This document shows positions 8,265 to 25,026 of a stretch of 25,026 bases of DNA, one piece after another. This DNA is from a virus. The notes below the pieces were generated by a model, which was given only the letters and a program-made list of their open reading frames with translations, was not told where the DNA came from and ran no database searches. The DNA lies in IMG/VR virus record IMGVR_UViG_3300010158_000298, positions 1 through 25,026 of that record. The stretch is one strand, 5' to 3'. The first letter of the stretch is position 1, and each line of letters begins with the position of its first letter. The position numbers were made by a program, and so were the translations under genes.

Positions 8265-8791
8265 TCACAAAGCAAATAAGTACTAAAAATATATTTGTCC
8301 TGTAAGGGAACATTGCCCCTATGCGGATATAAAAAGTTACTGGGAAATACCAATACACTTCCTTGTACTGCTGGTACTTTTAAATTCAATTTAGTAAATT
8401 CTGTTTCGCCTGATTCAACAGTATTAAGATAAAATAGTATAACTAAAAATCTATCGCCAGTTTGAGCATCTGCACTATCAATGTGTGTATCAAAATGATC
8501 AACATTTGCAGTATATTTTTTCATCTTACACATTTCGTATGCATGGGTGGGGACAAAATCAATAGAGCAATCTTTCAAATATCTATTCTTAATAGATTCA
8601 CATGTATCAAAAATTCTATCCATAACAGGTCGAAACATGTGAGTGTGATTCATTACCACTTGATCAAAACTTAAATTTTGCAAATCATGCCTTTGCACAT
8701 TTACTGCTTGACCAAAAATCCAAATCAAATCTTCACAAAATTCTTTATTAAGAACGTTATCATATACTCGTATGTAATCTTGTAGTTGCAT
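8261..8791 (-). CDS. 2OG-Fe(II) oxygenase, prolyl-4-hydroxylase type
   Basis: A 176-aa dioxygenase. The C-terminal double-stranded beta-helix has iron ligands H103-x-D105 (FDTHIDSAD) and H157 (FLYPHRGNV), with K166 in the 2OG-binding position (QDKYIFSTYL). The spacer GDRFLVILFYLNTVESGETEF, followed by VPAVQGSVLVFPS, is the usual P4H pattern. The substrate is unknown: prolyl or other residues of a phage or host protein are possible. I chose the ATG at 8791. The frame is open to 8848, but that extension runs through the terminator hairpin at 8815-8840. No Shine-Dalgarno sequence is present. A 7-of-8 late box AATAAATT (8797-8804) ends 5 nt before the ATG, which predicts a leaderless mRNA. Confidence 0.82.
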   Translation of the reverse strand: MQLQDYIRVYDNVLNKEFCEDLIWIFGQAVNVQRHDLQNLSFDQVVMNHTHMFRPVMDRIFDTCESIKNRYLKDCSIDFVPTHAYEMCKMKKYTANVDHFDTHIDSADAQTGDRFLVILFYLNTVESGETEFTKLNLKVPAVQGSVLVFPSNFLYPHRGNVPLQDKYIFSTYLLCD

Positions 8792-8796
8792 ATTAT

Positions 8797-8804
8797 AATT
8801 TATT
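8797..8804 (-). promoter_or_regulatory. Possible late promoter box AATAAATT
   Basis: AATAAATT on the minus strand, one base away from the AATAAATA form seen elsewhere in the window. It ends 5 nt before the oxygenase ATG and lies just downstream of a terminator, where a new promoter would be needed. The region is very AT-rich, so chance is a real alternative. Confidence 0.38.
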
Positions 8805-8860: not shown

Positions 8861-11800
8861 TTACGCTTGAGCCTCGCCCCAACGTAGTACCATGTTAGCA
8901 ATAACAGTACCTTGTGTAATGTAAACGTTAATAAACAATACGTCTGGACCGTTTGGATAACAACCACGTCCACCAATTGGAGTGTTAGTCAACTCTTTCA
9001 AGTTTGACAAGTCCAATGAGTCTTTGTTAGCTGGAGAACCAACAAACGAAAATACTGTTTCGCCCGGAGTCGCCGCTGTGTTACGTGAGAAGTAAATTGT
9101 TGCACCGCTATTGACTGCTGCCGCAACACCTTGGTTAAGAGTAATTGTGCTACCGTTAATTGATTTAACTTGCGTTAAACTAAAGAACGCCGCTGGAGTT
9201 GCTGGAACTAGTACGTCATCACCCACACGAATACCGTTCACGTTGTTGACCGTAAATGATGTACCACCGATAGTGTTGATACCAGTGTTGGTCACTGTGG
9301 TAATGTTGGTAGCTGAGTTAGCAAATGTAATACCAGCGCCTGGAGCAATTTGACTGAAACTTGGTTGTCCAGTTGGCAGTGTTGTACTGTTCAAACTATA
9401 GAATGGAATCTTAGTCAAATCAGTTGGATAGTTTTGCGGATTAATAATACCTTCAATAATCAACGCCGCGTTAGTACCACCAGCACCCGCTGTAATTTCA
9501 AGACCTTGTAGCAAGAAGCTCGCACGGTTAATCAATTCGCGAATACCCAAATCACCTGTCAAAGCGTTTGATACGCTAGGTGCTTGACGCACCGCAAACG
9601 CACAGGTTTTCTTAGTAGTAACTGTAATGTTTGGACTCTGATAGCTGAAAATGTATGAACGGTCAGTATCAAAGCCGCCGTCTTGTACAAACGCCGCACC
9701 CCAGTGACTTACTACTGGACTTGCTGTTGGGGTAATTTGCATTACACCTGTACCGCTAACGTGTACAGCCGCAGATCCTGCACCAAAAGTTCTATATGAA
9801 CCATTGGTCCACTGAGTCGTACTTTGAGCTCTGGTACAACCGATCAATGCACACGTTGTCATTAGTCCGTTGTATGGGGTTGTTGCAACCGCATTTACTT
9901 GTGTTACTACAGTTCCACCGCTTGTTGTACTTACAGTAACAGACGGAGCATTAGTATAACTAACACCACTAATAGTGCCAGTGAATGTTGCAATGCTTAA
10001 AATATAATAAGTACTACCACTAATGATATTACCTAAATTTATACCCTGAGTATTGGTAAACACAATAGGTTGACCAACAGCCATATTAGTTGTATTGCTT
10101 AAAATAACTCTGTTGTAAGTTGTTCCGCTAGAACTTAATACAGTTGCAGTTATGTAAGCATTAGTAGTCTTAGTATAAGTGATAATTTCGTTATCAATGT
10201 AAACTGTTATGCTTGATCCTGTAGCCGGCGTTGGGAAGAAACTGCTGTCAAACACAGTCATTACTGTATCAGCAATGCCCATGTTAACTGAACCTACTGT
10301 ATAGCTACGTGCGCCTTCGTTTTGCACTTCATAACGTACAGGCATGTTACCAGTACGCATCCAACCTTCGTTGTTCAAGTTGTTATTACGTAAACGATGT
10401 ACAAATTTGTAGTTACCATCGTCGCCACGCATCATCCAGTCAATAGAACCAGCACCATACCATGTCCATTGCATACCAACCATCTGCATCTTATATGGAA
10501 GCATCAAGTATCCGCTTGGATTGAATGGGCTGTTTGAACCGTCAAAACGATCTTTGTTCCACTGTGTTTGTGGCACTTTATAATCGATAGTTTTGGTCAT
10601 TTTAATACCGCTCAAGCTGGTAACACCACGCCATTGTGGGTTAACATACATTAAGGTTGAGCTGACAACTTGTGTTACTACATAGGTCATACCACGAATA
10701 ACCACGCGGTCGCCTGCGGCTAACTGTGTTAAGAAACGTGTGTTAATACCAATAACTTGTCCGCTACCTGTTGTTACACTAATAGTTCCAGCCAATTGGA
10801 ATGTACTTGAACGTTTTACAACATAACATTGTTGTCCGTCATATTCAAAGAACACACCGTTTTGTTCGTCGTATGTTCCTGTACGCACAGTTGCACCGCT
10901 CCAACCTACAAAACTTAATAAGCAAGGATCTTGAATTGCGGCGCCTGTTGTTGGGCTAATACTGCCCAATGTTTGAAATGCAGTAACTTGTATTACACGC
11001 TCATCAACAATACCGGCTACAGTATAGGTACCGTTGAAACCAGTGGTCAACACGCCGTCAAGTTTTACACGAGCTCCTAGTTGGCAACCGTGATCCACGT
11101 CATCTGTTACAATAGTAATGGTTGAACCAATTGCGGTACCAGAAGCAGTAATGCTACGTACAAAGAAGTTAGGAGCCATTAAGAAACCAGTGTTAAAGTT
11201 AATCGCCTTACCTGATTGATAACGAATATATTTCTTACTCATACGAATTGCTTGCAATCCGTGTCCTGGGCTGCCTGTACCTAATTGTACACCGCCGTCA
11301 AACGGTCTGTGTTGATAGAAACTGTCAACTCGAGCATACAATGTAGCAACAATAGTTGTACCAGGTTGTATAAAGTTGATGGTTTTGCCAGTGTAGGTAA
11401 ATGTTGTTGCACTTGTGACGTTTTCAACATAGTACGGACCAGCGGCAATTTGATGATTATTAAAACCGTTGTCTGATGTAACTACCACGTTAACTGTTGA
11501 CCCGGGAACAAATCCATGGTTACTATAAGTGTTTACTGTAATCGTAGTCGAACTACTAGTACTTTGGAAACTGGCTGTGCTAGTTACACTACCAGTGCTA
11601 GAACTTACAATATACACACCTGCTTGTCCTGTAGTACCACTACTTTGTGACACAATAATAGTATTTGTTGGTACTGTATATCCTGTTGTTTGAACGCCTT
11701 GGCCAACAGCCAGTGCTCCGCTAGCGATAGCACTTACAGTCAATGTATTACCACTTAATGCGGCTGTAAAGCTACAGGCAACTGCTGGTGTACTAACTGT

Positions 11801-13381
11801 GAATGTTGGATAACCTGTGCTGATACATGTTAAAAATCCAGCATTTGCAAGGCCTGACCCTGACAGTATCAATGTTGTTCCGCAGGTAACTGCCATACTA
11901 CCGTATGCTGTAGTTTGAGTAAACACGTTACCACTACCGCCAGCTGTTGTTGGCAATGTGGTTGACACAGTAATGTTTGCACCGTCAAGGATGGCAAACA
12001 CATAGTAAGTACCAGCTACTAAGTTACCAATTGTGGTACCTGTAATGTTAATAATCTCGCCCACAGTAATGTTAGCAGTTGTACCCAGTGCTACACCGTT
12101 AGTAACTGCACTGGTTGCGCTAATTGTTGTGGTGAAAATAACGTTTTGACTGACTGTTAAAGTAGTTGAGCTAGGAACTGATGCAACATAATATTGTGTA
12201 CCAGCTACTAAATTACCAAAACTTGATCCACCGGTAACGTTCATGTTACCGCCAGTGGTTGTTTGTGTTGGAACAAATACGGGAGTTAAACTTGGGTTAA
12301 CACTCATTGTAATTGTTACACTGTCGATAATACTGACCACATAATAAGTTGCGCCAGATGTAATACCAGCAAAACTAGTACCGCTGAATGTTAACGGCAT
12401 ATTTACCGACATACCCACTGTGGTACCTAAGGTAATTGTCTGTGCTACAGCGTTGGTAGATACAGCATTTGTACGTAGTGTATTAAACACTACACTAGAT
12501 CCAACAGTCATACCCACTGTGTTGTTTACAGTGACTAAGTTGCCGCTGGCATTGGTACTGGTTGCGGTTGTTACAATAACAGCATTGATGTTGCTACTTG
12601 TATAAAATCCGCCTAGACGCAACTGAACAACAGGAGTGTATAAGCTATCGCCGTTGCTAAAACCTACTTTACCTGTAGCATAGTATGTAAATGTTGTTGC
12701 TGAAGGAACTTGATAAACAATAAACGAACCCTGGCCACGATCGTAACCTGTAATACTAGAATCTAAACCAGTGATAGTAATTGGAGTACCAGCTGTTAAG
12801 TTATGAGCGTTAAATGTAGTCACTGTAATCAAAGCGGCACTAGTATCTGTTCCGCCTGATCCTCGACTTGCATCTGTTACAACTGCGGTAACTTGAATAT
12901 CTGTACCAGGAACTTCAAAAATACTTGGATAACCGCGTTCTTGGCTAATAGTCAACCACTTAGTTGGCTGGATTCCGTACTCAAAGTCAGCGTCAAGCAT
13001 GCTTTGTGGGCTGGCTGTACGTGTGCGTTCAAACGCATCTGTACCCATATCCCATGGACGAGTTATTAATTCTGGTTTTTCGAAGAACACTTGCAAGGTG
13101 TCTGTTGCACTTTGGCCAACTGTACTAACTGCTAGGGTAATAGTTGTAATACCGTCTGTGTTATCTAATGTAGTAAGCCAGTTTGTAATGTCGTTTGCAC
13201 GAGTCATTGTAACTGTTGTACCTGCATAGGTAACGTCAGCAAAGTTATATAATATAACGTTTTTTGTGGTGTTAGTAATCACCAAAAGTTGTTGAAGGTC
13301 AACTTTTCCAGGTACCTGAATTGTGCCTACACCGGCTGCTCCTGGTGTAAAAACGTATTGTCTAATCTGACTTTTGGCCAT
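8861..13381 (-). CDS. Large beta-repeat virion structural protein (1506 aa)
   Basis: Very likely a virion component: a fibre, baseplate-associated or other tail appendage protein. Residues 1-180 (YVFTPGAAGVGTIQVPG, later ITRPWDMGTDAFERTRT, ADFEYGIQPTKW and SQERGYPSIFEVPGTD) and about 690-1060 (TGTYDEQNGVFFEYDGQQ, VVIRGMTYVVTQV, MQMVGMQWTWYGAGSIDW) match patterns I know from large virion proteins of aquatic T4-like phages. Between them (about 270-620) and again near 1090-1150 lie tandem beta modules with a recurring core, for example GNLVAGTQYYVASV, GNLVAGTYYVFAI and GNIISGSTYYILSI. Thr, Ser, Val and Gly dominate. The ATG has GGAGAG upstream and its own GATAAATA box at 13407-13414, although the four-gene block may also read through. 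A terminator follows. No enzymatic motif was seen. Exact position in the virion is unknown. Confidence 0.75.
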   Translation of the reverse strand: MAKSQIRQYVFTPGAAGVGTIQVPGKVDLQQLLVITNTTKNVILYNFADVTYAGTTVTMTRANDITNWLTTLDNTDGITTITLAVSTVGQSATDTLQVFFEKPELITRPWDMGTDAFERTRTASPQSMLDADFEYGIQPTKWLTISQERGYPSIFEVPGTDIQVTAVVTDASRGSGGTDTSAALITVTTFNAHNLTAGTPITITGLDSSITGYDRGQGSFIVYQVPSATTFTYYATGKVGFSNGDSLYTPVVQLRLGGFYTSSNINAVIVTTATSTNASGNLVTVNNTVGMTVGSSVVFNTLRTNAVSTNAVAQTITLGTTVGMSVNMPLTFSGTSFAGITSGATYYVVSIIDSVTITMSVNPSLTPVFVPTQTTTGGNMNVTGGSSFGNLVAGTQYYVASVPSSTTLTVSQNVIFTTTISATSAVTNGVALGTTANITVGEIINITGTTIGNLVAGTYYVFAILDGANITVSTTLPTTAGGSGNVFTQTTAYGSMAVTCGTTLILSGSGLANAGFLTCISTGYPTFTVSTPAVACSFTAALSGNTLTVSAIASGALAVGQGVQTTGYTVPTNTIIVSQSSGTTGQAGVYIVSSSTGSVTSTASFQSTSSSTTITVNTYSNHGFVPGSTVNVVVTSDNGFNNHQIAAGPYYVENVTSATTFTYTGKTINFIQPGTTIVATLYARVDSFYQHRPFDGGVQLGTGSPGHGLQAIRMSKKYIRYQSGKAINFNTGFLMAPNFFVRSITASGTAIGSTITIVTDDVDHGCQLGARVKLDGVLTTGFNGTYTVAGIVDERVIQVTAFQTLGSISPTTGAAIQDPCLLSFVGWSGATVRTGTYDEQNGVFFEYDGQQCYVVKRSSTFQLAGTISVTTGSGQVIGINTRFLTQLAAGDRVVIRGMTYVVTQVVSSTLMYVNPQWRGVTSLSGIKMTKTIDYKVPQTQWNKDRFDGSNSPFNPSGYLMLPYKMQMVGMQWTWYGAGSIDWMMRGDDGNYKFVHRLRNNNLNNEGWMRTGNMPVRYEVQNEGARSYTVGSVNMGIADTVMTVFDSSFFPTPATGSSITVYIDNEIITYTKTTNAYITATVLSSSGTTYNRVILSNTTNMAVGQPIVFTNTQGINLGNIISGSTYYILSIATFTGTISGVSYTNAPSVTVSTTSGGTVVTQVNAVATTPYNGLMTTCALIGCTRAQSTTQWTNGSYRTFGAGSAAVHVSGTGVMQITPTASPVVSHWGAAFVQDGGFDTDRSYIFSYQSPNITVTTKKTCAFAVRQAPSVSNALTGDLGIRELINRASFLLQGLEITAGAGGTNAALIIEGIINPQNYPTDLTKIPFYSLNSTTLPTGQPSFSQIAPGAGITFANSATNITTVTNTGINTIGGTSFTVNNVNGIRVGDDVLVPATPAAFFSLTQVKSINGSTITLNQGVAAAVNSGATIYFSRNTAATPGETVFSFVGSPANKDSLDLSNLKELTNTPIGGRGCYPNGPDVLFINVYITQGTVIANMVLRWGEAQA

Positions 13382-13427: not shown

Positions 13428-14198
13428 TTAGATTGATCTCGTGAAGAATCCTATGGCCCATGCCGCATTTTCTGCGTATCTTTTTGTGCTTGCCTGACTT
13501 CTAAGGTTAGTAGGAGTACTAACTGCATTCCAGTACGATTCGTCATTGGCTGTCAGTGTTAATGAAGTCATTTGTCCAGCCGCTGGAGTTGTTAAACCTA
13601 TAGTCATGTTGTCTATTGCGCCTAATCCGGTAGGATTAACAGTGACAGAACCAACTCCTGTAGGGCTAAAATTAATTGTTTGATTTTGCGTTGTAGCAAC
13701 TATGTTACCCAGCTGGGTAGTTGATATGCCTGCTGTGCCAATAGTTAAACTGCCCGCAGGGCTTATTGTGGCTGTTCCGCTGGTGTTAATAAGAATATTT
13801 CCAGCGCCATCTAACGTGACATTACCTGTTGTACGAACAGTGGTAAATTGTGCGGCATTAGGAGTAATACTACCAATACTAACATTATCTAAAGTACCAG
13901 TTGAACTACTAACAACACTTACTATACCACCGCTAACTGTTAAATTACCCGTTAGACTTGTTGGGCCGCCAACAGTTATACCAGTAAGAGTACCAGGAAT
14001 ATTTACTATACTGCTGGATAAACTGGTGTTAGTTAATAAAGGAACACCGTTATAGCTGATATAGCATCCAGCACTAATTTCCACACGATTACCAGTAACC
14101 ACAAGGCTACTAACAATCATATTGCCAATACTATCAACTACAAAGTAAGGACTAGTGAATCCGCTTTGACTTCTAAATAATTTAGTTACATTACTCAT
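13428..14198 (-). CDS. Repeat-containing virion structural/fibre-like protein (256 aa)
   Basis: A beta-rich, Thr/Ser/Gly-rich protein without enzymatic motifs. It holds two copies of the module seen in the two preceding genes: STGTLDNVSIGSITPNAAQF (about residues 99-118) and GLGAIDNMTIGLTTPAAGQM (about 191-210). In between lie INFSPTGVGSVTVNPTGLG and similar strands. The C-terminus has NLRSQASTKRYAENAAWAIG, a possible capping helix. This architecture is common among tail-fibre-like proteins of aquatic phages. The ATG comes 3 nt after the stop of the 174-aa gene, so it is part of the same operon. The specific role (fibre, whisker or decoration) cannot be told from the sequence. Confidence 0.7.
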   Translation of the reverse strand: MSNVTKLFRSQSGFTSPYFVVDSIGNMIVSSLVVTGNRVEISAGCYISYNGVPLLTNTSLSSSIVNIPGTLTGITVGGPTSLTGNLTVSGGIVSVVSSSTGTLDNVSIGSITPNAAQFTTVRTTGNVTLDGAGNILINTSGTATISPAGSLTIGTAGISTTQLGNIVATTQNQTINFSPTGVGSVTVNPTGLGAIDNMTIGLTTPAAGQMTSLTLTANDESYWNAVSTPTNLRSQASTKRYAENAAWAIGFFTRSI

Positions 14199-14201
14199 AT
14201 T

Positions 14202-14726
14202 TTAGGCCATTGCTATACCGTAAGCTGCCGCAAGTGCTGTGGCAAAATTCTTTGTTACTGCGCTGTTACTGGCAAATTGTTGCGTTGAGCTCAATGCCAC
14301 GTTGGTGAATTTTCCTGCCGCAGGTGTAATTGATCCTATAGTCACGTTATCCAATGTGCCGCCATTAGCTGGGGCAATAACTAACTGACCCGTGCCCGTT
14401 GGGCTGATTGTAACTTGTGCGTTTGCAGGGCTTAAATTAACTGTGTTTGTGGCTACTAACGATGTAAACGTGCCAGCTCTTGGTACAGTCGCGCCAATTG
14501 CAATGTTATCCAATGTTCCTGTTGAGCTAGGATTAATTGTTAATGTGTTTGTGACATTTAAATTTGCTATGCTGATAGTAGGACTAATGTTAAAAGTCAA
14601 AGTGTTTGTTGTAGCATTTGTAGTAATAGCAATACCGCCGCCAGCGGCTACGGTTAATGTATTAGTAGTGGCGTTTAAACCAATTGTATTTTGGCCTGCG
14701 ACGGCAATGTAGGTATATGCACTCAT
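14202..14726 (-). CDS. Repeat-containing virion structural/fibre-like protein (174 aa)
   Basis: The shortest of three neighbouring relatives. It consists mostly of repeated beta strands: N-terminal NTIGLNATTNTLTVAAGGG, followed by the close repeat GGIAITTNATTNTLTFNIS, then two shared modules STGTLDNIAIGATVPRAGTF (about 71-90) and NGGTLDNVTIGSITPAAGKF (about 122-141). NLSPANAQVTISPTGTGQL lies between them and is nearly identical in pattern to NLTPASSNVIISPTGTGRI of the 347-aa protein. It ends in a short Ala-rich segment. The ATG overlaps the upstream stop (ATGA), with AGGAG inside the upstream gene, so translation is coupled. A structural role is inferred from composition, repeats and context. 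Confidence 0.7.
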   Translation of the reverse strand: MSAYTYIAVAGQNTIGLNATTNTLTVAAGGGIAITTNATTNTLTFNISPTISIANLNVTNTLTINPSSTGTLDNIAIGATVPRAGTFTSLVATNTVNLSPANAQVTISPTGTGQLVIAPANGGTLDNVTIGSITPAAGKFTNVALSSTQQFASNSAVTKNFATALAAAYGIAMA

Positions 14727-15766
14727 TTAATTGCTCCTAGCAATAATTGTTGTTTGACCGTGTTAAGTGTAGCAAGGTCACTTCCACCATTTTGTGGATT
14801 TGTTAATAATAATGTTGAAAACGTTGCGCCTGCAGGAGTAATACTTCCAATTATAACGTTATCCATAGTTCCTAAAATCGAAGAACTGGCTACAATTCTG
14901 CCAGTGCCTGTTGGACTGATTATCACGTTGCTACTTGCAGGTGTTAAATTTGTTTGATTTGTTGTTGTAAGTGTTGTAAAATTTGCTGGGAACGGAGTGC
15001 TACCGCCAATTATAACATTATCTATCTTGTTAGTACTGCCACTGAGTGTACTGGTAAAAGAACTAGTAACTGCTACGCTAGGGTAATTAGTTGCAGTGAA
15101 CGTTAATGTTCGCGTAGTGCTATTAGTAGTAACAGCAATGGCATTATCAGGATTGGTAATATTAAAACTATCTAGGATAAAAGCAGATCTTAACGGGCTT
15201 TGTCCTGCAACTACTATATTAGTTAATGTACTAATTTCAATTTGGCCGTTTTCAGTAATTTGTAAAAAACCGTTAGGTAAGTTACTGTTATTCCAGTTTA
15301 ATTGTTGGCCAAATTCGCCGCCTGCCGTAGTTGTCTCGCCTACAGTAGTCGGAACTGCAAGTCGAGTAATTCGTTCACTATAAGTTACTTTAAAAATTAC
15401 TTTAATATTTTTTAGCAATGTTGCATCGTCTGCTTCGTAAAACGGTGTTGCTATCAGCTTGACCACGCTATTGTCAACTGTAGTAGAAAATTGCACAAGA
15501 TCTCGTCCAAGATTAGTACGTCCATAAACTGTTATACTAGCTTGACCAGCACGAGCAGTGACCACAGCATTAACATGTTCGACATCATCAGGTCCGTATT
15601 CTAGACTTAATTCATAACTGGCTGTGGTAAAATCTTGTAAGTACCATGTATCTATCACTGTAGTCGTGTTTACAACAACAGCAGTTCCTCTGTAGGAGAA
15701 ATTTGCTTGGTTCTTGAATTTAAGGGTGTTTGCTAACCCTCGTGTGAAAAAATCAGTAAAGTTCAT
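14723..15766 (-). CDS. Virion structural/fibre-like protein (347 aa), first gene of the block
   Basis: Residues about 20-135 form a distinct N-terminal domain (NFSYRGTAVVVNTTTVIDTW, LQDFTTASYELSLEYG, NIKVIFKVTYSERI) of a type I associate with fibre-like proteins of aquatic myophages. The C-terminal half has the module shared with the next two genes: TNKIDNVIIGGSTPFPANF (about 246-265) and LGTMDNVIIGSITPAGATF (about 299-318), with NLTPASSNVIISPTGTGRI between them. The end, DLATLNTVKQQLLLGAI, may be a short helix. The ATG has GAGAG upstream and an AATAAATA late box at 15787-15794, so this gene probably leads the minus-strand structural operon. No enzymatic motif was found. Confidence 0.72.
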   Translation of the reverse strand: MNFTDFFTRGLANTLKFKNQANFSYRGTAVVVNTTTVIDTWYLQDFTTASYELSLEYGPDDVEHVNAVVTARAGQASITVYGRTNLGRDLVQFSTTVDNSVVKLIATPFYEADDATLLKNIKVIFKVTYSERITRLAVPTTVGETTTAGGEFGQQLNWNNSNLPNGFLQITENGQIEISTLTNIVVAGQSPLRSAFILDSFNITNPDNAIAVTTNSTTRTLTFTATNYPSVAVTSSFTSTLSGSTNKIDNVIIGGSTPFPANFTTLTTTNQTNLTPASSNVIISPTGTGRIVASSSILGTMDNVIIGSITPAGATFSTLLLTNPQNGGSDLATLNTVKQQLLLGAIK

Positions 15767-15857: not shown

Positions 15858-16436
15858 ATGGGCCGTTATTCGGAGTATTTTAAAGATGTTTGGAAGCTAC
15901 AACAGGGTAGAAAAATTATAGGGCTGACATTGTTTGGCGTTATATTTGATAACACCACACCGTTTACTCCGGGCAACCAACTGTCAATTTCTGACGATGT
16001 GGCTGATGCTGTAAAATTAATAACTCAAAAAGGGCATGATTTTTTAGTAATCATGGGTCAACCGCCTAGCAGAACAAAGAACTTGGATTTAAAAGATTTT
16101 GAAAATATTCTTGGTGCATTTAAAGAAATAGTGGAAAGTCTGGGCGGCCGTGTTAGAAATAACTATTACAGCCCAAGCACTGAAAAAACTGACCCGTATG
16201 TTAAACCTAATACAGGTATGTTTGAGCGTGCCGCTAATGAAAACCCAGTTAAATGGGATGAGACTTTTTACATTGGTGCGGATATGAATGATGTAAAAGC
16301 CGCAAATAAAATGAAATCAACACCTATACTGATAACAGGACTTAGTAAACAAACTAAAACTAAGGCTTTCGAGCTTACAAATCAAATTAAAATTAAAGAA
16401 TACGGGTCGTTATTAGAATTTGCTAAAACACTCTAA
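15858..16436 (+). CDS. HAD-superfamily protein, GmhB/HisB-N-like, probably inactive
   Basis: A 192-aa protein with the layout of HAD class III phosphatases such as D,D-heptose-1,7-bisphosphate phosphatase. Motif I would be LTLFGVIFDN: the place of the usual D-x-D is taken by T24 and F26, so both the nucleophile and the acid/base aspartate seem missing. Motif II, usually TNQ, reads M66-G67-Q68. The motif III lysine remains (K116 in YVKPNTGMFERA), as does a motif IV-like YIGADMNDVKAANKM (D142, D145). Hence a HAD fold is likely, but ordinary phosphatase chemistry is not. The start is supported by AGAGGAG 7 nt upstream; a TAAATT box near 15831-15836 may be its promoter. The gene ends at a bidirectional terminator facing the glycan cassette. 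Confidence 0.75.
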   Translation: MGRYSEYFKDVWKLQQGRKIIGLTLFGVIFDNTTPFTPGNQLSISDDVADAVKLITQKGHDFLVIMGQPPSRTKNLDLKDFENILGAFKEIVESLGGRVRNNYYSPSTEKTDPYVKPNTGMFERAANENPVKWDETFYIGADMNDVKAANKMKSTPILITGLSKQTKTKAFELTNQIKIKEYGSLLEFAKTL

Positions 16437-16465
16437 AAAAAAGAGCTCTTAGGAGCTCTTTTTTT
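16436..16465. terminator. Bidirectional terminator between HAD-like and carbamoyltransferase genes
   Basis: Arms AAAAAAAGAGCTC and GAGCTCTTTTTTT pair perfectly over 13 bp around the loop TTAG. It begins in the stop codon of the plus-strand HAD-like gene and touches the stop of the minus-strand carbamoyltransferase gene. The A-run and T-run let it work in both directions. Confidence 0.88.
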
Positions 16466-18164
16466 ATGCTGTCTTTGTAAGTAACTTGCCTATTTCTGGC
16501 ATCCACAAGTACTTCATGTCGGACTTTAATAAAGTTTCCGTTGCTTCTTTAACAGTTTCCACCAGAGGATCTCCAGCTAGATTAAAACTGGTATTAAACA
16601 AAATTGGAACAGATTTAATCTTTTCAAATTCACTGATCAATTCGTAATAGTGAGGGTTTTGTTCTTGTGTAACTGTTTGAATTCTACAAGTTCCATCTAC
16701 GTGTGTGATTGCTGGAATTACATCTTGTTTGTCATCTAGTACATTTACAGCATACATCATAAATGGAGTGTCTTGTTTGCTTCTCAAATCAAACCATTCA
16801 TGTACTTTTTCAGCAAGCACAGTACCAGCAAATGGACGGAACCACTCGCGGCGTTTAACTTCATTAACAAGATCTTTGCCGTTCTTAACTGTTGGGTCAA
16901 ACAAAATACTTCTATTGCCCAATGCACGGGGGCCTGCTTCACTGCGACCTTGATACAAACAGACAATATTTTCTTCTGCAATAATTTTAGCAACATCGGC
17001 AGCCGTAACATCAGTTACGTCAAATCCTGTAAAATCTGCGGTAGCATATTCTTCGCTATGATCTGGGCCAAGATACAATGTAGTTAAGGGTGCCTTAATA
17101 GAATCTTGGCTCATTTTTCTATATACCATTTGACAAGCACCCATTACATTGCCGCCATCGTGAGCTACTGGTTCATGATAAAATTCAACATCGGGAAATT
17201 CTTTTAAGAATTCGTAATTGGCAACACAATTAAGAATATATCCGCCAGCCATAACTACTTTTTTCTTGCCAGTCATTTCAATAGCTAGGCGAATTAAATC
17301 CGCCACACGGCGTTCCGATGACTTTTGCACAGCGTAAGCCAAATCTTTTCTATAATCGTCGATCAAATCTTCATCACTATGCCAGCTGACATCGCCACAA
17401 ATTGCACCTAGTTCCGAATCCATATCACAGCGTACTAGACTGCCGGCTGGAAAACGTGGCTTGATAAAACTACGATTGTTAAATTTACCATCGTCGATTT
17501 TAATTGTATCATTAGGTTTACCATAAGGAGCGAGTCCCATAGTTTTGCCAGCTTCGATGGCATGGAATCCTAAAAATTGTGTAACAGCTTCATAACTTTT
17601 TACAATACCGTGGCCATCACTGCACTCTACTCTAGCACCTTGATAGTCAACTCCAAAACTGTCGGGACTATTACAACCATAGTTAACTAACAATTGTTTA
17701 ATGTCCGCTGGATAGTTACAGTCCCAGATACTTTCAACTTCCCAAGTATCTTCCCAAAGGTGGGGAGCTTGCTCGTGCATGAATCCACTGCCTGCACCGT
17801 CTACAACCACTGCCACTGCATCGTCGAATCCACTATTATAAAATGCAGTAACAGCGTGTGTTAAATGATGGTCATCGCCCAGTTTAATTGTTTCTAATTT
17901 TCGACCTTGTTGTTTCTTACGTGCATAGCAAGTGTAAGGATCTTCAGCAGTCCATGGCATTTTTCCAAATGAATTGCGTGTACCGCAAAGAACAATATAG
18001 TCAATTGTATCAGTATATTCGTAGGCTTTTTCCATACCCATGTAAGGATTGCCGTCGTACTTTAATCTACTCAATCTGTCTTCTTCAATGTAAAAGATTA
18101 ATTCACTATCTTTGTACAGTGCTGTAGCACCATTATGGCCTACGTTGATTCCTAATAACCACAT
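16464..18164 (-). CDS. Carbamoyltransferase (NodU/CmcH/TobZ family)
   Basis: Transfers a carbamoyl group from carbamoyl phosphate, via carbamoyl-AMP, to a hydroxyl of a sugar or other small molecule. The 566-aa length is typical. The N-terminal Kae1-like domain starts MWLLGINVGHNGATALY and has the metal site D98-H99-H100-x2-H103 (DDHHLTHAVTAFYNSGF), VVVDGAGSG (about 119-126), MAGGYILNCVANYEFL (305-320) and HDGGNVMGA (335-343). The C-terminal domain has GRSEAGPRALGNRSIL (406-421), REWFRPFAGTVL (439-450), HVDGTCRIQTV (488-498) and ILFNTSFNLAGDPLVET (521-537). All hallmark blocks are present, so it should be active. I chose the ATG at 18164 (AAGGA upstream), 10 nt after the glycosyltransferase stop. 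The acceptor is probably the glycan made by that neighbour (inference). Confidence 0.92.
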   Translation of the reverse strand: MWLLGINVGHNGATALYKDSELIFYIEEDRLSRLKYDGNPYMGMEKAYEYTDTIDYIVLCGTRNSFGKMPWTAEDPYTCYARKKQQGRKLETIKLGDDHHLTHAVTAFYNSGFDDAVAVVVDGAGSGFMHEQAPHLWEDTWEVESIWDCNYPADIKQLLVNYGCNSPDSFGVDYQGARVECSDGHGIVKSYEAVTQFLGFHAIEAGKTMGLAPYGKPNDTIKIDDGKFNNRSFIKPRFPAGSLVRCDMDSELGAICGDVSWHSDEDLIDDYRKDLAYAVQKSSERRVADLIRLAIEMTGKKKVVMAGGYILNCVANYEFLKEFPDVEFYHEPVAHDGGNVMGACQMVYRKMSQDSIKAPLTTLYLGPDHSEEYATADFTGFDVTDVTAADVAKIIAEENIVCLYQGRSEAGPRALGNRSILFDPTVKNGKDLVNEVKRREWFRPFAGTVLAEKVHEWFDLRSKQDTPFMMYAVNVLDDKQDVIPAITHVDGTCRIQTVTQEQNPHYYELISEFEKIKSVPILFNTSFNLAGDPLVETVKEATETLLKSDMKYLWMPEIGKLLTKTA

Positions 18165-18174
18165 GTGTAGTTCC

Positions 18175-19098
18175 TTATTTTGTTGTTTTTTCGATATGCT
18201 TTTTAATATTAGCAATGATAGATTTTAATTCTTCTTTGCTAAAATCCATGATAGTATCATTTAAACGGTCTGCTTCTTCGCATCCAAATCCACAAATTCT
18301 AATAGGGCTGTAAACTCTTTCAGCATTTTTCTTTTCTACAATATTGAAATGATCTGGATATGTAATATTGATAGGGTATGTGCTACCGCATACCACAGTA
18401 CCGGGCTTGTTAAATGAATATGCCATATGCTGGCCCACACTATCACATCCAATAAAATAATCACTAGCTTCGATTACAGCCGCCCAAATTCGCAACGGCA
18501 TTTGTTCTTGTGGCTGAAACAAAGGAACATTCATGACTTCTAACTTGTGCTCGCCCATATAAATCATATTATATTCTTTGCTTAACTCGCCAACTAGTTC
18601 AATAAATGCGCTTTGCTCAAGACTGCGACTGCTTCCATCAAATACAATGCCCGGGCCCATTGTACTGCTACGGCCAAATGGTTGGATTACAATAGTTTTC
18701 TCTTTGCCCATTTGCTGTTTTACTTGACTAATAACTCCGCAGGCGCTCATTTCTTCTTGCTTGCTTAGTACTAGAGTAGGTACCACTGTTTTTGTAGTAC
18801 GCTCTCCTAGAATTTCCCACCAGAAACTTTGTTGTAAACTACTGCGTTGATTATAATACTCGTGATCTCTGTAAGGCTCAGGAGACACCAGTTGATTATC
18901 TTTGATTAATGTGTCAAACAAGCCTTTGTGATTGACATCATATGCCAAATCTTGCAAAACAGGATGCCCGAGAAACATTTCCATGCCGCCTTCGCAAACA
19001 ATACCTGCGAGTTCTCCTCGGCGATTCAATTCTTCAAGGGCAGGAATACTGGCCAATACTCTACCTGCTCCTCCGTTGACAAACACGACTTTTTTCAT
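18175..19098 (-). CDS. Glycosyltransferase, GT9/heptosyltransferase-like (GT-B fold)
   Basis: A 307-aa protein with the two-domain GT-B pattern. The N-terminal Rossmann half begins KKVVFVNGGAGRVLASIPAL, in the place of the usual 'G.iGD.i...P.l' loop. The C-terminal half has IVIQPFGRSS (136-145), the helix with YFIGCDSVGQHMAYSFNKPG (214-233; D219, S220, H224) and VVCGSTYPINITYP (235-248), the donor-site signature of heptosyltransferases (GT family 9). The donor could be ADP-heptose or another nucleotide sugar; GT9 members vary. A late box (19127-19134) and AAGGA precede the ATG. It is probably cotranscribed with the carbamoyltransferase, which starts 10 nt after it. The fold is confident, the exact donor and acceptor are not. 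Confidence 0.78.
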   Translation of the reverse strand: MKKVVFVNGGAGRVLASIPALEELNRRGELAGIVCEGGMEMFLGHPVLQDLAYDVNHKGLFDTLIKDNQLVSPEPYRDHEYYNQRSSLQQSFWWEILGERTTKTVVPTLVLSKQEEMSACGVISQVKQQMGKEKTIVIQPFGRSSTMGPGIVFDGSSRSLEQSAFIELVGELSKEYNMIYMGEHKLEVMNVPLFQPQEQMPLRIWAAVIEASDYFIGCDSVGQHMAYSFNKPGTVVCGSTYPINITYPDHFNIVEKKNAERVYSPIRICGFGCEEADRLNDTIMDFSKEELKSIIANIKKHIEKTTK

Positions 19099-19126
19099 AG
19101 GGTTCCTTAATGTGCGTAGTTAATGA

Positions 19127-19134
19127 TATTTATT
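19127..19134 (-). promoter_or_regulatory. Late promoter box AATAAATA before the glycosyltransferase
   Basis: AATAAATA on the minus strand, 28 nt upstream of the ATG at 19098, inside the 46-nt gap after the second SGNH gene. It divides the cassette into two transcription units, although read-through from upstream remains possible. Confidence 0.56.
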
Positions 19135-19144
19135 GTACGCTTGT

Positions 19145-19918
19145 TTAGTATAATTGATTCTTGGTAATATAGTCAACCAATAATTTGCCAAATGCCGCAT
19201 GTGGTACTTCGTCAAAATGTTGTTGTTGCCGTTGATGTGTTGGAAAATGTTTTAAGCAAAAATCATGCATTGTTCGCTCTTCGGGCCAGAAATAATGAGC
19301 ACTTTCTTCCAACAATGGAAATGAATAATCCCCACATGTGGCAACAAACACATATCGGTATCCACGGCTTTTTAAAAATGCTTCCATGGCTGCCATGCGA
19401 GCTTGCTGTGCTGGAATTAGTACAGGATCTGTCCAAATGAATTTAGTTAGCCAGGGCAGAACATGGTTGCTTAAATCTATTTTTTCTTTATCTTTGTTTG
19501 TGATTAATATTTCTAAAAATGGACTGACAAACGCCACTTTGTGATCAATTGCTTCAGGTGCTTCGGTATAACGTTCCAGCTCTCGATCAATTTGATCAGT
19601 AGAGCTGAACGGATTGACTCCATAAAATCCTTCGGCATCCAGTTCCGTTCTGGTAAGGCTGGTCCAAGCAATCATAACAAATGTATCTTTGGGATCAATC
19701 ATGGTTTTTTCCAACTCGATTAAATCTGCTATCGTGGTTTTAAAAATAAAATCGTTAGTTGCTCCGTTGTAAGCACTGTTGATATAAGTATCGCAACCTA
19801 GATCATCTGCCACATGTTTGGCAAAACATAATTCTTTATTACGCTCTTCTCTGTTGTTGTGCCCAAAAATTTCCATTCCGAAGACAAAACTATCTCCGTT
19901 GCAATAAAAAGTTGTCAT
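19145..19918 (-). CDS. SGNH/GDSL-family hydrolase (257 aa)
   Basis: An SGNH-fold esterase or acyltransferase-like protein. Block I is YCNGDSFVFG with the nucleophile S10. Blocks II/III are seen in INSAYNGATNDFIFKT (G52, N55, the oxyanion-hole residues). The C-terminal catalytic pair is probably D236 or E237 with H240 in QHFDEVPHAAFGKLL; the spacing is slightly off the classic D-x2-H. Members remove or move acyl groups on sugars, lipids or peptidoglycan. No signal peptide is seen, so it acts in the cytoplasm or on virion parts before release. The ATG overlaps the stop of the upstream sulfotransferase-like gene by 4 nt, which suggests coupled translation. The substrate is unknown. Confidence 0.75.
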   Translation of the reverse strand: MTTFYCNGDSFVFGMEIFGHNNREERNKELCFAKHVADDLGCDTYINSAYNGATNDFIFKTTIADLIELEKTMIDPKDTFVMIAWTSLTRTELDAEGFYGVNPFSSTDQIDRELERYTEAPEAIDHKVAFVSPFLEILITNKDKEKIDLSNHVLPWLTKFIWTDPVLIPAQQARMAAMEAFLKSRGYRYVFVATCGDYSFPLLEESAHYFWPEERTMHDFCLKHFPTHQRQQQHFDEVPHAAFGKLLVDYITKNQLY

Positions 19919-20694
19919 AATTTATATCTCAATTGTTGTCCTCTGTATATTAACATATTGTTACACATTTCGTCATACATTAAATTATTGGTAGTAAATC
20001 CTAAAAATTTTACTATACTGCCCAACACGTTGTCGAGGTTATCAAACATATATTCTTTGTACATTATTTCAAAAAATCTATCATCGTAATCAGCACTATT
20101 TGGAACATTTTTAGCGGTTAATTCGACATGAGACTTAGCCCACGAAAATTCCTGCGGGTTATCTCCAATAGTTGTATATTTTTCCCACAAGGCATCTGTA
20201 GGTTCTATGCCATTTGATTTGCAAAATTGATCAAATTTTTCCCTAGTCTTAGGACCCCAGCGAAGAAAATTAGCTGTACATACTAACAAGTCGTCTTGTT
20301 CAATATTGATTTGTATACATTTTGCTTGAGGGAACGCCTGCATAAACACGTTTATGTTACAGCAACTTATTGCAATTACATGCGGTACTCGTTCTAGTGG
20401 TGCGCCCTTTACAGATTTTAATGTGTCATGCAAATATGCAATTCTATCTTCAAGCGAGAATGAATCATAGTCAGTATCTTGAATGATCTGCATGCCTTTT
20501 TCTGATTTTGCAAACTCGGTGTAAAAATTATTAATAGTTCTTATTTGCTTGTTGGCGTAACTTGACCCAATTTGATCAAATATAAATGCATGTATAGGGT
20601 CGCTTGCATTGTATAGTAAGCTAGCTAAAAACCACCCACCTGATCCAGCTGGATAATGAACAAACAATATTGGTAAATCTTTTAGTTTATGCAT
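19915..20694 (-). CDS. Sulfotransferase-like P-loop protein (259 aa)
   Basis: Not securely identified. The N-terminus, LPILFVHYPAGSGGWFLASLL, has a strand, a glycine/serine loop (P15 to G20) and a helix, as in the 5'-phosphosulfate-binding loop of PAPS-dependent sulfotransferases or in a P-loop nucleotide-binding protein. A strand HVIAISCCNINVFM and KCIQINIEQDDLLVCTANFL, with an acidic/hydrophobic continuation, could be the later core strands. The end (FEIMYKEYMFDNLDNVLGSI, then KFLGFTT) resembles the closing part of sulfotransferases, where the protein returns to the core ('...Y..L...P...l..i..FLG'). It overlaps the flanking SGNH genes by 13 and 4 nt. A kinase-like role is the main alternative. 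Confidence 0.55.
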   Translation of the reverse strand: MHKLKDLPILFVHYPAGSGGWFLASLLYNASDPIHAFIFDQIGSSYANKQIRTINNFYTEFAKSEKGMQIIQDTDYDSFSLEDRIAYLHDTLKSVKGAPLERVPHVIAISCCNINVFMQAFPQAKCIQINIEQDDLLVCTANFLRWGPKTREKFDQFCKSNGIEPTDALWEKYTTIGDNPQEFSWAKSHVELTAKNVPNSADYDDRFFEIMYKEYMFDNLDNVLGSIVKFLGFTTNNLMYDEMCNNMLIYRGQQLRYKL

Positions 20695-21437
20695 AACATA
20701 TTCAATTTTTTAAAATATTCTTCAGCATAAGAGTCTGCTGTTAACACATCATAGTGAAATCCATCTCTTGCAAAATCTAATTGTTTTAAGCTGGCAAAAT
20801 AAACAACGTTATTTCTATCCAAGTATTGATAAACTTTACTGTGCAGTTGATCTCTATGTTCAAAATCTGCAAAATCTGGTATAAAACTATGTACTATTTT
20901 AGTTTTTCCTTTTTTACTTTCTACTAAATCTATATTTTTTAAAAAGTTTTCTAGGTCGTTATTGTCGTGAGTGTCAAACCAAACAGCCCTATCTTCATCT
21001 AGCAAATAATTGTCATCGAGTTCTCTTCTATGTAAAAAACTCCACTGTATTAATATATTTGTTGGCTGTAAATTTTCTAAGATATATGCTACTCTGCGAG
21101 CAATCCAATCATTGCTGGCACCATTCATACTTATATTAATAATAGGTGTGTTTAATTTTAGTGATAGTAATTGTGGCCATGTATCATCAAACGTTTGTCC
21201 TAACCCAAGGGTAAAACTATCGCCTAAACACCACGTTTGACCACTTACATCTTCAGGCCAATCGTTGTCCCTATAACCTAAATAATTATACATATAGATT
21301 ACTTGCTTAGGCCATGTTTTAAACCGCGGTAAATTTTTGCAAGATTCTGGGCTATCAATTCCCATAGTTGAAAACATAGCATTGGCAGTGCCTGTTAGTG
21401 CTAGTTCTTTGATCATATCATCTGTTAACATTATCAT
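20682..21437 (-). CDS. SGNH/GDSL-family hydrolase (251 aa)
   Basis: A second SGNH-fold protein, with a 65-residue N-terminal extension not present in the 257-aa relative. Block I is TWCLGDSFTLGLGQ (G72-D73-S74, nucleophile S74). NISMNGASNDWIARR supplies the oxyanion-hole G106 and N109. The C-terminal catalytic pair is D225-x2-H228 in FARDGFHYDVLT. All three catalytic positions are intact, so activity is expected, probably as an esterase or O-acyltransferase on a sugar. The ATG at 21437 lies inside the upstream gene (20-nt overlap); a second ATG two codons later (21431) is equally possible. The 3' end overlaps the next gene by 13 nt. No signal peptide was seen. Confidence 0.78.
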   Translation of the reverse strand: MIMLTDDMIKELALTGTANAMFSTMGIDSPESCKNLPRFKTWPKQVIYMYNYLGYRDNDWPEDVSGQTWCLGDSFTLGLGQTFDDTWPQLLSLKLNTPIINISMNGASNDWIARRVAYILENLQPTNILIQWSFLHRRELDDNYLLDEDRAVWFDTHDNNDLENFLKNIDLVESKKGKTKIVHSFIPDFADFEHRDQLHSKVYQYLDRNNVVYFASLKQLDFARDGFHYDVLTADSYAEEYFKKLNMLCIN

Positions 21438-22542
21438 ACCAATCCTGTAGTTCTGTCAATGCAATATTGCCTAATTCTTCTATACTGTATCTATGTTCAA
21501 GATTGTTTTTAGCACTCCAATCATTATACGTGTCTATACATTCTTTAAAATTCTTAATCATTAAGGCTTTTTCAGCTAGTGTTTGTAATTTTATAGGCAC
21601 TCCATGTATCAGTTCTCGATCCATTACTTGTTGGCTTACTGTCTTATACACTGAAAAATATTGTGAGAAATTTGTTTTTACAAATTCTTGATCTTGTATA
21701 GCTAGTGACGATCTGGACAAAATCTTTTGTAGTCCCATACTGTTAGTGGGCAATTGAGTATTTTCTTTATTATCAAGTAATCTGAATTCTTGTTGATTAG
21801 CAATCTTAAGACTAAAATCAGTAAGGTCGCTAATCAAGTAATGACAAGCGTTCCATTTATTCCAACTAATGCCATAAGTGTCTTCCCATTTTTTAGCTGG
21901 TTGATTTGCAGGAAAGATATCTAACTGATTAACGAATCCATCTAAATTTTTAACGTCCGTTTCGTAATTAAAAATCTTGTTAACCATAAAATGATCGCTA
22001 GACCATTTTAAATAATTTATATACTTGTCAAGATATTCTGTAAAAACTTTTAAATCCACAGTGATTTTGTTTTTGTAAAGTGCGCCGAATGCTTCGATTT
22101 TTTCTTCATGTTGATAAACGTTTAATTTTTTACTAAACGCAACTATGCACCAACTTAACGCATGTTCAAACAAGTTTTCTCTGCGGGCACTTATAATATA
22201 AAAATTGTCATTGATGTATTTGTAAAAACTCAATTGATCAGGTAGTGAATCTTTTCTATTAATAATATGATATTGAGCAAGTCTACTTACTGTATATTGA
22301 TCTACGCTGGCTAACAAACTAGTAGTTTCTTTTAAACTTTGATGATACCCCCAGTCTTCTTTGGCAGGTTTACCAAGTAATTCTTGATTGTATTTTTCGC
22401 TGTGATATTTTACCAGGCCGTTAGTTAGTTCGTGTAAATTGATTACGGGTTTGCCGTAGTCATGCCCTTGCATTACCATGGTGATAAATTTTTGGAGTAA
22501 ACTTGACCCTACACGATCGGGCGTTAGCACAATTACATTCAT
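21418..22542 (-). CDS. Sulfotransferase family protein (374 aa)
   Basis: Begins MNVIVLTPDRVGSSLLQKFI, a first strand, then a phosphosulfate-binding-type loop (residues 8-15) and helix. The second hallmark is the 3'-phosphate-binding segment DNFYIISARRENLFEHALSW, with R120/R121 and S130. This order and spacing (about 110 residues apart) fits PAPS-dependent sulfotransferases that act on sugars. The C-terminal 150 residues, rich in Lys, Asn and Gln, are not recognised. I start it at the ATG at 22542. The frame can also begin at a TTG at 22548, but there the AATAAATA box (22549-22556) would abut the codon. No Shine-Dalgarno sequence is present. The gene leads four overlapping genes. The acceptor is unknown. 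Confidence 0.68.
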   Translation of the reverse strand: MNVIVLTPDRVGSSLLQKFITMVMQGHDYGKPVINLHELTNGLVKYHSEKYNQELLGKPAKEDWGYHQSLKETTSLLASVDQYTVSRLAQYHIINRKDSLPDQLSFYKYINDNFYIISARRENLFEHALSWCIVAFSKKLNVYQHEEKIEAFGALYKNKITVDLKVFTEYLDKYINYLKWSSDHFMVNKIFNYETDVKNLDGFVNQLDIFPANQPAKKWEDTYGISWNKWNACHYLISDLTDFSLKIANQQEFRLLDNKENTQLPTNSMGLQKILSRSSLAIQDQEFVKTNFSQYFSVYKTVSQQVMDRELIHGVPIKLQTLAEKALMIKNFKECIDTYNDWSAKNNLEHRYSIEELGNIALTELQDWYDNVNR

Positions 22543-22548
22543 AGGCAA

Positions 22549-22556
22549 TATTTATT
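22549..22556 (-). promoter_or_regulatory. Late promoter box AATAAATA for the four-gene sulfotransferase/SGNH unit
   Basis: AATAAATA on the minus strand, 6 nt upstream of the ATG at 22542. In T4, late transcripts start about 6 nt after the box, which here falls at the start codon. It is 15 nt from the plus-strand box CCTAAATA, so the two form a divergent pair. Confidence 0.55.
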
Positions 22557-24133: not shown

Positions 24134-25026
24134 TTAATCTTTCCAATATATTAGTGCCATGCCGGTTCCTGCTGGACTTAATCTCCAGTCTAGCTCGCTT
24201 GGAGGGAACGCCAACGCTGGACCACTGCCGTTACACAAATCATAAGATCCACCATAACAGACACATAGTAAATAACTTCTGTAAACGCCGCTTCCGCCGC
24301 CTTTACCTGCTTTTTGCGCACCATTACAGTAGGCAAAGCCACCTGAACCGCCTAATGTACCTGCACATGCGAAGATGTACGGAGCAATGGCCTGCATCAT
24401 TTTGTCTGCACAACAAACTCTTCCGCTTGTACCTAAACAGCAAATTAAAGTAAAGTTAAACATTGCGTAGGCATCAACACCGTTCAAACAGCATGATCCT
24501 GTGAAAAATGTCATATCACAGCAGAATGAACCTACACCACCTGTACCAGCGCCTTCGCCTGAGTTGTCAGGGTGTGTATCCCACATGTTGCTTACGAAAC
24601 CACTGTTTGGTGAGCAAATTGATTGGAATGTTCCTTTACCTGAACTGCCGCTACCGCACATACTGTGGATATCGTGCCATGGATAAAATCTTGGTGCAGA
24701 ACCTTGTGGTTTTAGAACACTTGCCGAACCTTCACCGTGGAAGTTAGCTCCATAACTCATAAAGTTATAGTATTCTTGTCCGCGGCCTTCGTCGTTGTCA
24801 AAGCCACCCCAACCGCCATGTCCGTTTTTAATACGCATGTTTTGGCAAGTACCTTGATAGTGTTGGCACTCACAATATGTACAGCATTGGAATTTAGTTC
24901 CGCCACCGCCACCAGTTGCCGACATACAGCACATATTACGTAGTAATTGTCCCCAAGTTGTTGTGTTATAACTTTGCTTGTGGCAAATACATGTACACCA
25001 GTGACTGCGAATTGGCTGACGGCAGA
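24134..25026 (-). CDS. Cys/Gly-rich protein, possible tail-tip or fibre protein, 5' end outside window
   Basis: The frame stays open from 24134 to the window edge (297 codons), so the true start lies beyond 25026 and the first internal Met (24934) is probably not the start. The visible part holds 26 cysteines in 296 residues, many as CC doublets (MCCMS, QCCTYC, FCCDM, SCCLN, ICCLG, VCCAD). It also has C-x-C pairs (TCICH, CEC, CVC) and glycine runs such as SATGGGGGTK and GKGGGSG. Large aromatic residues are frequent; the C-terminus ends LDWRLSPAGTGMALIYW. Gly-rich segments recall phage adhesin tips (for example T-even gp38), but the cysteines do not. Possible readings are a disulfide- or metal-stabilised receptor-binding protein. 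No family could be assigned. Confidence 0.65.
   Translation of the reverse strand, partial: CRQPIRSHWCTCICHKQSYNTTTWGQLLRNMCCMSATGGGGGTKFQCCTYCECQHYQGTCQNMRIKNGHGGWGGFDNDEGRGQEYYNFMSYGANFHGEGSASVLKPQGSAPRFYPWHDIHSMCGSGSSGKGTFQSICSPNSGFVSNMWDTHPDNSGEGAGTGGVGSFCCDMTFFTGSCCLNGVDAYAMFNFTLICCLGTSGRVCCADKMMQAIAPYIFACAGTLGGSGGFAYCNGAQKAGKGGGSGVYRSYLLCVCYGGSYDLCNGSGPALAFPPSELDWRLSPAGTGMALIYWKD

Follow-up and report, generated by a model that had tools for sequence, protein, structure and literature searches.

The window analysed here is a stretch of 25,026 bases that makes up the entire IMG/VR record IMGVR_UViG_3300010158_000298. Its genes, which include those for a tail sheath, a gp15-type sheath stabiliser and neck proteins, point to a T4-like myovirus. 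It harbors a cassette of six open reading frames (ORFs), all on the minus strand, that are transcribed in the order PL1 (21418..22542, a Stf0-like sulfotransferase-fold protein), SGNH2 (20682..21437, an SGNH/GDSL hydrolase and the partner of PL1), PL2 (19915..20694, a sulfotransferase fold without the canonical residues that bind 3'-phosphoadenosine 5'-phosphosulfate (PAPS)), SGNH1 (19145..19918, DUF6071/SGNH-like), a GT9-like, heptosyltransferase-like glycosyltransferase (18175..19098, termed GT9 in the following) and CarbT (16464..18164, a full-length NodU/TobZ-type O-carbamoyltransferase). Successive genes overlap by 20, 13 and 4 nt and are then separated by gaps of 46 nt and 10 nt. An earlier note made from the sequence alone had described six one-strand genes with overlaps or gaps of 20, 13, 4 and 10 nt, which the ORF coordinates bear out. 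A HAD-IIIA protein resembling GmhB is encoded convergently to CarbT (15858..16436, plus strand), and between the two genes lies an inverted repeat with A/T tracts (AAGAGCTC..GAGCTCTT, 16437..16463) that reads as a bidirectional terminator, is common to the CarbT unit and the HAD gene and ends both. On the other side, a gene for a 2-oxoglutarate (2OG)-Fe(II) oxygenase (PF13759; 22593..23225, plus strand; Pfam 1.4e-20, PHROG 81 6e-35) diverges from PL1. The earlier note made no use of these two flanking genes, and they carry much of the meaning of the cassette.

Scans of viral contigs yielded related loci (L002-L118), 21 of which hold GT9 and represent 15 clusters at 95% DNA identity. Of these IMG/VR loci, 20 contain both GT9 and CarbT, and the two genes were adjacent in every one (GT9 identity 41-82%). 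Recurrence of the genes in related phages had been named beforehand as the test of the cassette, and the complete six-gene set was indeed present in five further contigs (L015, L028, L029, L040 and L054), while L027 carries the first five genes and ends inside GT9. In the 21 GT9 loci, PL2, PL1 and SGNH2 were either all present together or all absent. The usual order is PL2-PL1-SGNH2-...-SGNH1-GT9-CarbT, from which the window differs in that PL2 follows SGNH2. Since GT9 and CarbT are neighbours wherever both occur and PL2, PL1 and SGNH2 come all or none, the cassette consists of two modules: a core of GT9-CarbT that stays constant (module A) and a set of PL2, PL1 and SGNH2 that can be exchanged. 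SGNH1 and 2OG oxygenase genes surround these modules. The position of GT9-CarbT between fibre and structural or neck genes is fixed in this phage group and in cyanophage genomes.

Next, the late promoter box ATAAATA was considered. The window contains no excess of it (8 copies observed versus 11 expected), yet for seven of the eight copies a correctly oriented gene begins 11-35 nt downstream of the start of the box (binomial P about 1e-11). The genes preceded in this way are those for the sheath, both neck proteins, the big structural protein, the fibre-like protein fib3, GT9 and PL1. As described in the earlier note, a motif scan places boxes before the first and the fifth gene of the cassette, at 22549..22555 and 19127..19133 (both minus strand). 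The box upstream of GT9 is conserved in 20/21 loci, compared with a background of 0.8% at random positions, and related loci also keep the boxes before fib3 (13/13), neck13 (7/7) and neck14 (8/9). No box precedes CarbT (0/25 loci) or SGNH1 (0/11), as expected because both lie inside units; the box before PL1, seen in the window, occurs in 38/89 loci. A scan for sigma-70 promoters remained at chance level. Given the conserved box before GT9 and its absence before CarbT, it is very likely that GT9-CarbT forms a late unit, and the late control and fibre-gene neighbourhood assumed before are supported by both position and conservation of the boxes.

By its sequence, CarbT certainly belongs to the NodU/TobZ family of O-carbamoyltransferases. 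Carbam_trans_N and Carbam_trans_C are both present at full length (Pfam 4e-61; PHROG 1601 2e-155), and matches to PDB profiles include O-carbamoyltransferases of known structure such as TobZ and GdmN, with values to 2e-53. H100, H104, D123, D337 and the sequence GPRALGNR, which keeps the GPRALGxR adenylate motif, are invariant across ten homologues; the conserved His and Asp residues presumably form the metal site, as in TobZ. The predicted activity is transfer of a carbamoyl group to a sugar hydroxyl. Because a phage-encoded member of the same superfamily carbamoylates 5-hydroxymethylcytosine (5hmC) (PMC8670742; MetaGPA, eLife 2021), CarbT might instead carbamoylate a hydroxymethylated base and GT9 glycosylate DNA, which we regard as very improbable. 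CarbT is 25% identical to the 5hmC enzyme over part of its length (62 bits), compared with 45-48% to the cyanophage 'Nol' enzymes and about 30% to rhizobial plasmid carbamoyltransferases, and it sits in a late unit among fibre genes. The thymidylate-synthase family (PF00303) is the known route to 5hmC, and the phage 5hmC enzyme is paired with a homologue of it, whereas a PF00303 protein was found in 0/10 GT9-CarbT records, including those of 356 kb and 280 kb. DNA carbamoylation is thus disfavoured.

GT9 matches PHROG 8954 (9e-98) and, below the cut-off, the NCBIfam model of heptosyltransferase III (6.5e-4). Aligned by hhalign with E. coli WaaF/C/U/Q, the profile of the phage GT9 proteins reached 91% over 90 columns, while a GT4 control gave 0.3%. 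The C-terminal donor-site motif D-[ST]-x-x-x-H-x-A is present, with D219, S220, H224 and A226 invariant, and the homologue of cyanophage S-CAM3 has weak matches to heptosyltransferase III, RfaQ and heptosyltransferase I. On these profile comparisons the protein is classed as GT9-like, not as a formal member of the GT9 ADP-heptosyltransferases. In Vibrio phage D505, the gene of a distant relative (24%) at 6989-7726 immediately precedes a 5.3-kb gene for a tail protein. Apparent cellular matches are contigs of marine metagenome-assembled genomes (L133-L140) whose assignments spread over unrelated phyla of bacteria and archaea; they are mostly short, with one of 335 kb, and are probably misbinned phage.

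The closest known case is the cyanophage 'LPS' (lipopolysaccharide) cluster T4-GC 302-308 of P-SSM2, S-SSM7, S-CAM1, S-CAM3 and Sf-FS3, a cluster of unknown function for which a genome comparison in 2010 asked whether it is functional or 'stuffer DNA' (PMC3037559). As in the window, a GT9-like gene adjoins a Nol-like carbamoyltransferase gene between fibre and neck genes, with 2OG oxygenases nearby. In the five cyanophages, GT9-CarbT is followed by genes of ADP-heptose synthesis, namely a heptose-7-P kinase and/or nucleotidyltransferase and GmhA and/or an HldD-like epimerase; the kinase and the epimerase of S-CAM3 were confirmed with family models. In contrast, Pfam recognises no ADP-heptose synthesis genes in the window, and this phage has SGNH1, PL2, PL1-SGNH2 and a degenerate GmhB-like HAD protein instead. 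The block of S-CAM1 and S-CAM3 lies between a tail-fibre gene and the gene of a big structural protein adjoining gp13, which is homologous to the big protein of the window. The best NCBIfam match of the HAD protein is GmhB, the heptose-bisphosphate phosphatase (3.9e-12, below the cut-off, likewise for four homologues), and a GmhB-like HAD gene stands beside GT9-CarbT also in the marine loci L025 and L131. The form with a lost catalytic Asp is conserved in relatives and is apparently a maintained pseudo-phosphatase. That no named system has this gene set, as was stated earlier, holds for the six genes together; it does not hold for the GT9-like and Nol-like pair, which is annotated in cyanophages, e.g. 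as the 'LPS cluster' of P-SSM2.

Gram-negative hosts have ADP-heptose and build the LPS core on the cytosolic face, where a flippase is not needed. This favours the alternative that the cassette recodes the host: late in infection, GT9 would add heptose to the LPS core or to some other glycan of the cell surface, and CarbT would carbamoylate and PL1 sulfate it, which would keep progeny from being wasted on debris or prevent competitors from adsorbing. The nearest cellular relatives of the module A chemistry, heptosyltransferases and WapO, a putative carbamoyltransferase of the Pseudomonas LPS core heptose HepII (PMC8005017), also act on the LPS core. The structural-type late promoters and the fixed position among fibre genes argue against this alternative, which we consider possible but rather unlikely. 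A further argument comes from Sf-FS3, which was isolated on Synechococcus WH8102 and carries the GT9-CarbT heptose cluster. The LPS of this host has neither heptose nor KDO (PMC4515613), therefore the native LPS core is not the acceptor there, and by this comparison a virion acceptor would fit the Sf-FS3 case best.

The AlphaFold2 (AF2) model of PL1 (374 residues, pLDDT 91.4) was compared with known structures by Foldseek. The first four ranks were all the Mycobacterium trehalose sulfotransferase Stf0 (1tex), with probability 1.0 and an E-value of only 2.4e-3, followed by kinases. PL1 differs from Stf0 in that it has no match to it at sequence level, is longer (374 versus about 245 residues) and has a conserved SGNH partner. 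Among 39 diverse homologues the P-loop P-D-[RA]-V-G-S-[ST] (PDRVGS) and E38 are conserved, and R121 and S130 are invariant. Relatives of PL1 were found on at least 132 IMG/VR viral stretches, many of them on records of 200-520 kb; a search for cellular homologues found none, and neither PL1 nor PL2 had a match in the isolate phage collection. In L003 (5743-8084) and also in L004-L006 and L008, two tandem PL1 genes lie between neck13 and neck14, and the stretches examined there are without SGNH2, GT9 and CarbT.

The partner SGNH2 shows all SGNH blocks, with Ser74 (GDS), Gly106, Asn109, Asp225 and His228 (DxxH) invariant in 39/39 homologues, 35 of which match Lipase_GDSL_2. When PL1 lineages were defined at 85% identity, the two genes were linked in 31 of 40: they abut in 24 (8 on the same strand, 16 tail to tail) and lie within 2.5 kb in 7 more, while some of the nine unlinked lineages are contigs that end early. 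Because the linkage is kept through opposite orientations, these data suggest selection on the pair itself and not merely on an operon. APS (adenosine 5'-phosphosulfate)-kinase-like genes occur in 12/20 PL1 records. In six of these records, two of them closely related to each other, the distance to PL1 is 36-2058 nt, and L016 is a seventh in which such a gene lies within the cassette region itself. APS_kinase ranks first or second among the Pfam families matched by these proteins, with the match confined to roughly the first 90 positions of the family, and the NCBIfam cut-offs were missed; judged from these matches, they may supply PAPS. In three loci (L058:9183-9977, L117:11968-12762 and L108:8609-9445) the APS-kinase-like domain is fused to a C-terminal nucleotidyltransferase-like domain, which could make a minimal PAPS-synthetase-like protein. 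Other P-loop proteins are encoded near PL1, one with a weak Sulfotransfer_3 match. The literature searched contained nothing on phage sulfotransferases or APS kinase in phages, and the PL1-SGNH2 pair appears to be undescribed and recurrent in many large phages. In a more speculative reading, which we consider rather unlikely, the pair and its APS-kinase-like supply would be a dedicated, widespread phage module for the sulfation of a heptose glycan that is carbamoylated and carried by the virion, with the SGNH protein as obligate editing partner.

PL2 gave nothing significant with sequence profiles (Pfam, PHROG, PDB), and its relatives were found by an alignment-based scan, a plain pattern scan having yielded none. 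With its AF2 model (pLDDT 87.5), the top Foldseek matches had an E-value of 2e-4 and low TM-scores, and the first 31 consisted only of PAPS sulfotransferases and one relative, retinol dehydratase. The model thus indicates a sulfotransferase fold; for lack of the canonical PAPS-binding residues, PL2 is not classed as a member of the PAPS sulfotransferases and would at most work like one. In SGNH1 (Pfam DUF6071 4.6e-7), Ser10, Asn55 and His240 are invariant and the Gly mostly so, and the position three residues ahead of the His lacks a conserved Asp. The family names given earlier therefore fared unequally: that of CarbT is certain and that of SGNH2 supported, SGNH1 is DUF6071-like, GT9 has weak heptosyltransferase matches, and PL1 and PL2 are recognised by fold. 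The claim of two sulfotransferases is half supported, by the carbohydrate-sulfotransferase fold of PL1; PL2 has the fold and lacks the expected PAPS-binding residues.

The best fold match of PL2, tyrosylprotein sulfotransferase, is consistent with a chemistry that needs no glycan, in which virion proteins, a peptide or a small molecule would be directly hydroxylated, halogenated, sulfated on tyrosine and O-carbamoylated. 2OG oxygenase genes are recurrent in many cassette loci, and L028, which with L054 has one of the fuller clusters, encodes a Trp halogenase (2.7e-102) and a Bac_luciferase protein (4.9e-33) between SGNH2 and GT9. Nevertheless, the halogenase is sporadic whereas the constant neighbours of CarbT are the GT9-like gene and heptose genes, and the best fold match of PL1 is a sugar sulfotransferase, which makes direct protein chemistry quite improbable. 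A tryptophan halogenase gene lies in or beside the cassette region of L028 (13750-16396, together with a luciferase-like monooxygenase gene) and of S-SSM7 (L119:17158-18645). Apart from these, a nucleotide-sugar epimerase and a DegT-type aminotransferase gene lie a few kb from PL1-SGNH2-CarbT in L114 (3333-6477), which suggests an amino-sugar variant of the cluster. Proteins of a tripartite tricarboxylate transporter, TctC (1e-20) and TctA (1e-19), are encoded near clusters in large phages (L015:15109-16059, L058:14899-15876 and L054:19119-19491).

Past CarbT lie three fibre-like genes without family matches, fib3 (14723..15766, minus strand, with its own late box), fib2 (14202-14726) and fib1 (13428-14198), followed by the gene of the large virion structural protein (8861..13381, minus strand; PHROG 5838 8e-232). 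On the far side of the 2OG oxygenase gene, orf24 (24134..24934, minus strand) encodes a Gly/Cys-rich protein (18% Gly, 8% Cys) that is a candidate fibre-tip acceptor. Cyanophages encode Gly/Cys-rich proteins of similar composition at the same place; no sequence similarity to orf24 was detected, so that the likeness is one of composition only. Two further oxygenase candidates, with homologues among oxygenases, lie at 3530-4057 and 8261-8797 of the window, and in relatives several are often clustered.

In the reading that we prefer, with a probability of about one half, the cassette is a late one of the tail-fibre region that decorates a heptose-containing glycan on the phage's own fibre proteins with a heptose-type sugar, carbamoyl and perhaps sulfate. 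For this phage, we infer the identity of the sugar, the transfer of sulfate, the acceptor and the purpose as follows. GT9 would use a nucleotide-activated donor to attach a heptose-type sugar, one hydroxyl of which CarbT would carbamoylate, much as has been proposed for WapO on Pseudomonas HepII. PL1 might add sulfate from PAPS, SGNH2 might act on adjacent positions by removing or transferring acyl groups, and accessory roles would fall to PL2 and SGNH1. The glycan could be attached where the flanking 2OG oxygenases have hydroxylated the protein, and the decoration might alter adsorption or shield the fibres from decoy or degrading molecules. The earlier proposal that the genes decorate a glycan thus remains the best reading; the context favours heptose and the virion, and the host surface less.

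Several observations weigh against this reading. GT9 has no Pfam hit, misses the PF01075 cut-off and passes no curated family cut-off. PL1 is without a significant Pfam, PHROG or PDB-profile match and was recognised by fold comparison only. Compared with the canonical PAPS-binding residues, the 3'-PSB candidates R121 and S130 of PL1 are spaced by 9 instead of 8, and PL2 has a P-loop without Lys or Arg (YPxGxGGWF) and Ile131 and Cys139 at the places of the 3'-PSB Arg and Ser. The HAD protein has lost its nucleophile Asp (TLFGV in the window versus DRDGV in L025) and no gmhA was found in 14 large relatives, therefore ADP-heptose would need to be supplied by the host, and the heptose argument is carried over to this phage from the cyanophages. 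As acceptor, a virion protein is the most probable candidate, and this would be either the Gly/Cys-rich fibre-tip proteins or fib1-3. No membrane glycosyltransferase, flippase or polymerase was recognised in the cassette unit (ORF list and Pfam), and this is weak support for a virion acceptor, because modification of the LPS core needs no flippase either.

Known systems share parts of this chemistry. In Pseudomonas, the core heptose is added by GT9 enzymes; WapO differs from the cassette in its chromosomal LPS-core locus without sulfotransferase or SGNH genes and in its acceptor, LPS. On the rhizobial Nod factor, NodU/NolO, NodH/NoeE with NodPQ, and NolL/NodL put carbamoyl, sulfate and acetyl groups on one glycan, with PAPS from dedicated enzymes. 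This decoration works in the way proposed for the cassette, but its product is a lipochitooligosaccharide signal without heptose and is not viral.

The results link the GT9-carbamoyltransferase core of the unexplained cyanophage 'LPS' genes with the fibre loci of two phage groups, for one of which late promoters have been shown, and they lead to the directly testable prediction that fibres carry heptose and carbamoyl. The PL1-SGNH2 pair, for which neither PHROGs nor the isolate phage collection has a counterpart, would be a first lead to phage-encoded sulfation. If the virion-sulfation reading is true, it would be a case of a virus sulfating its own structural proteins with enzymes that it encodes.

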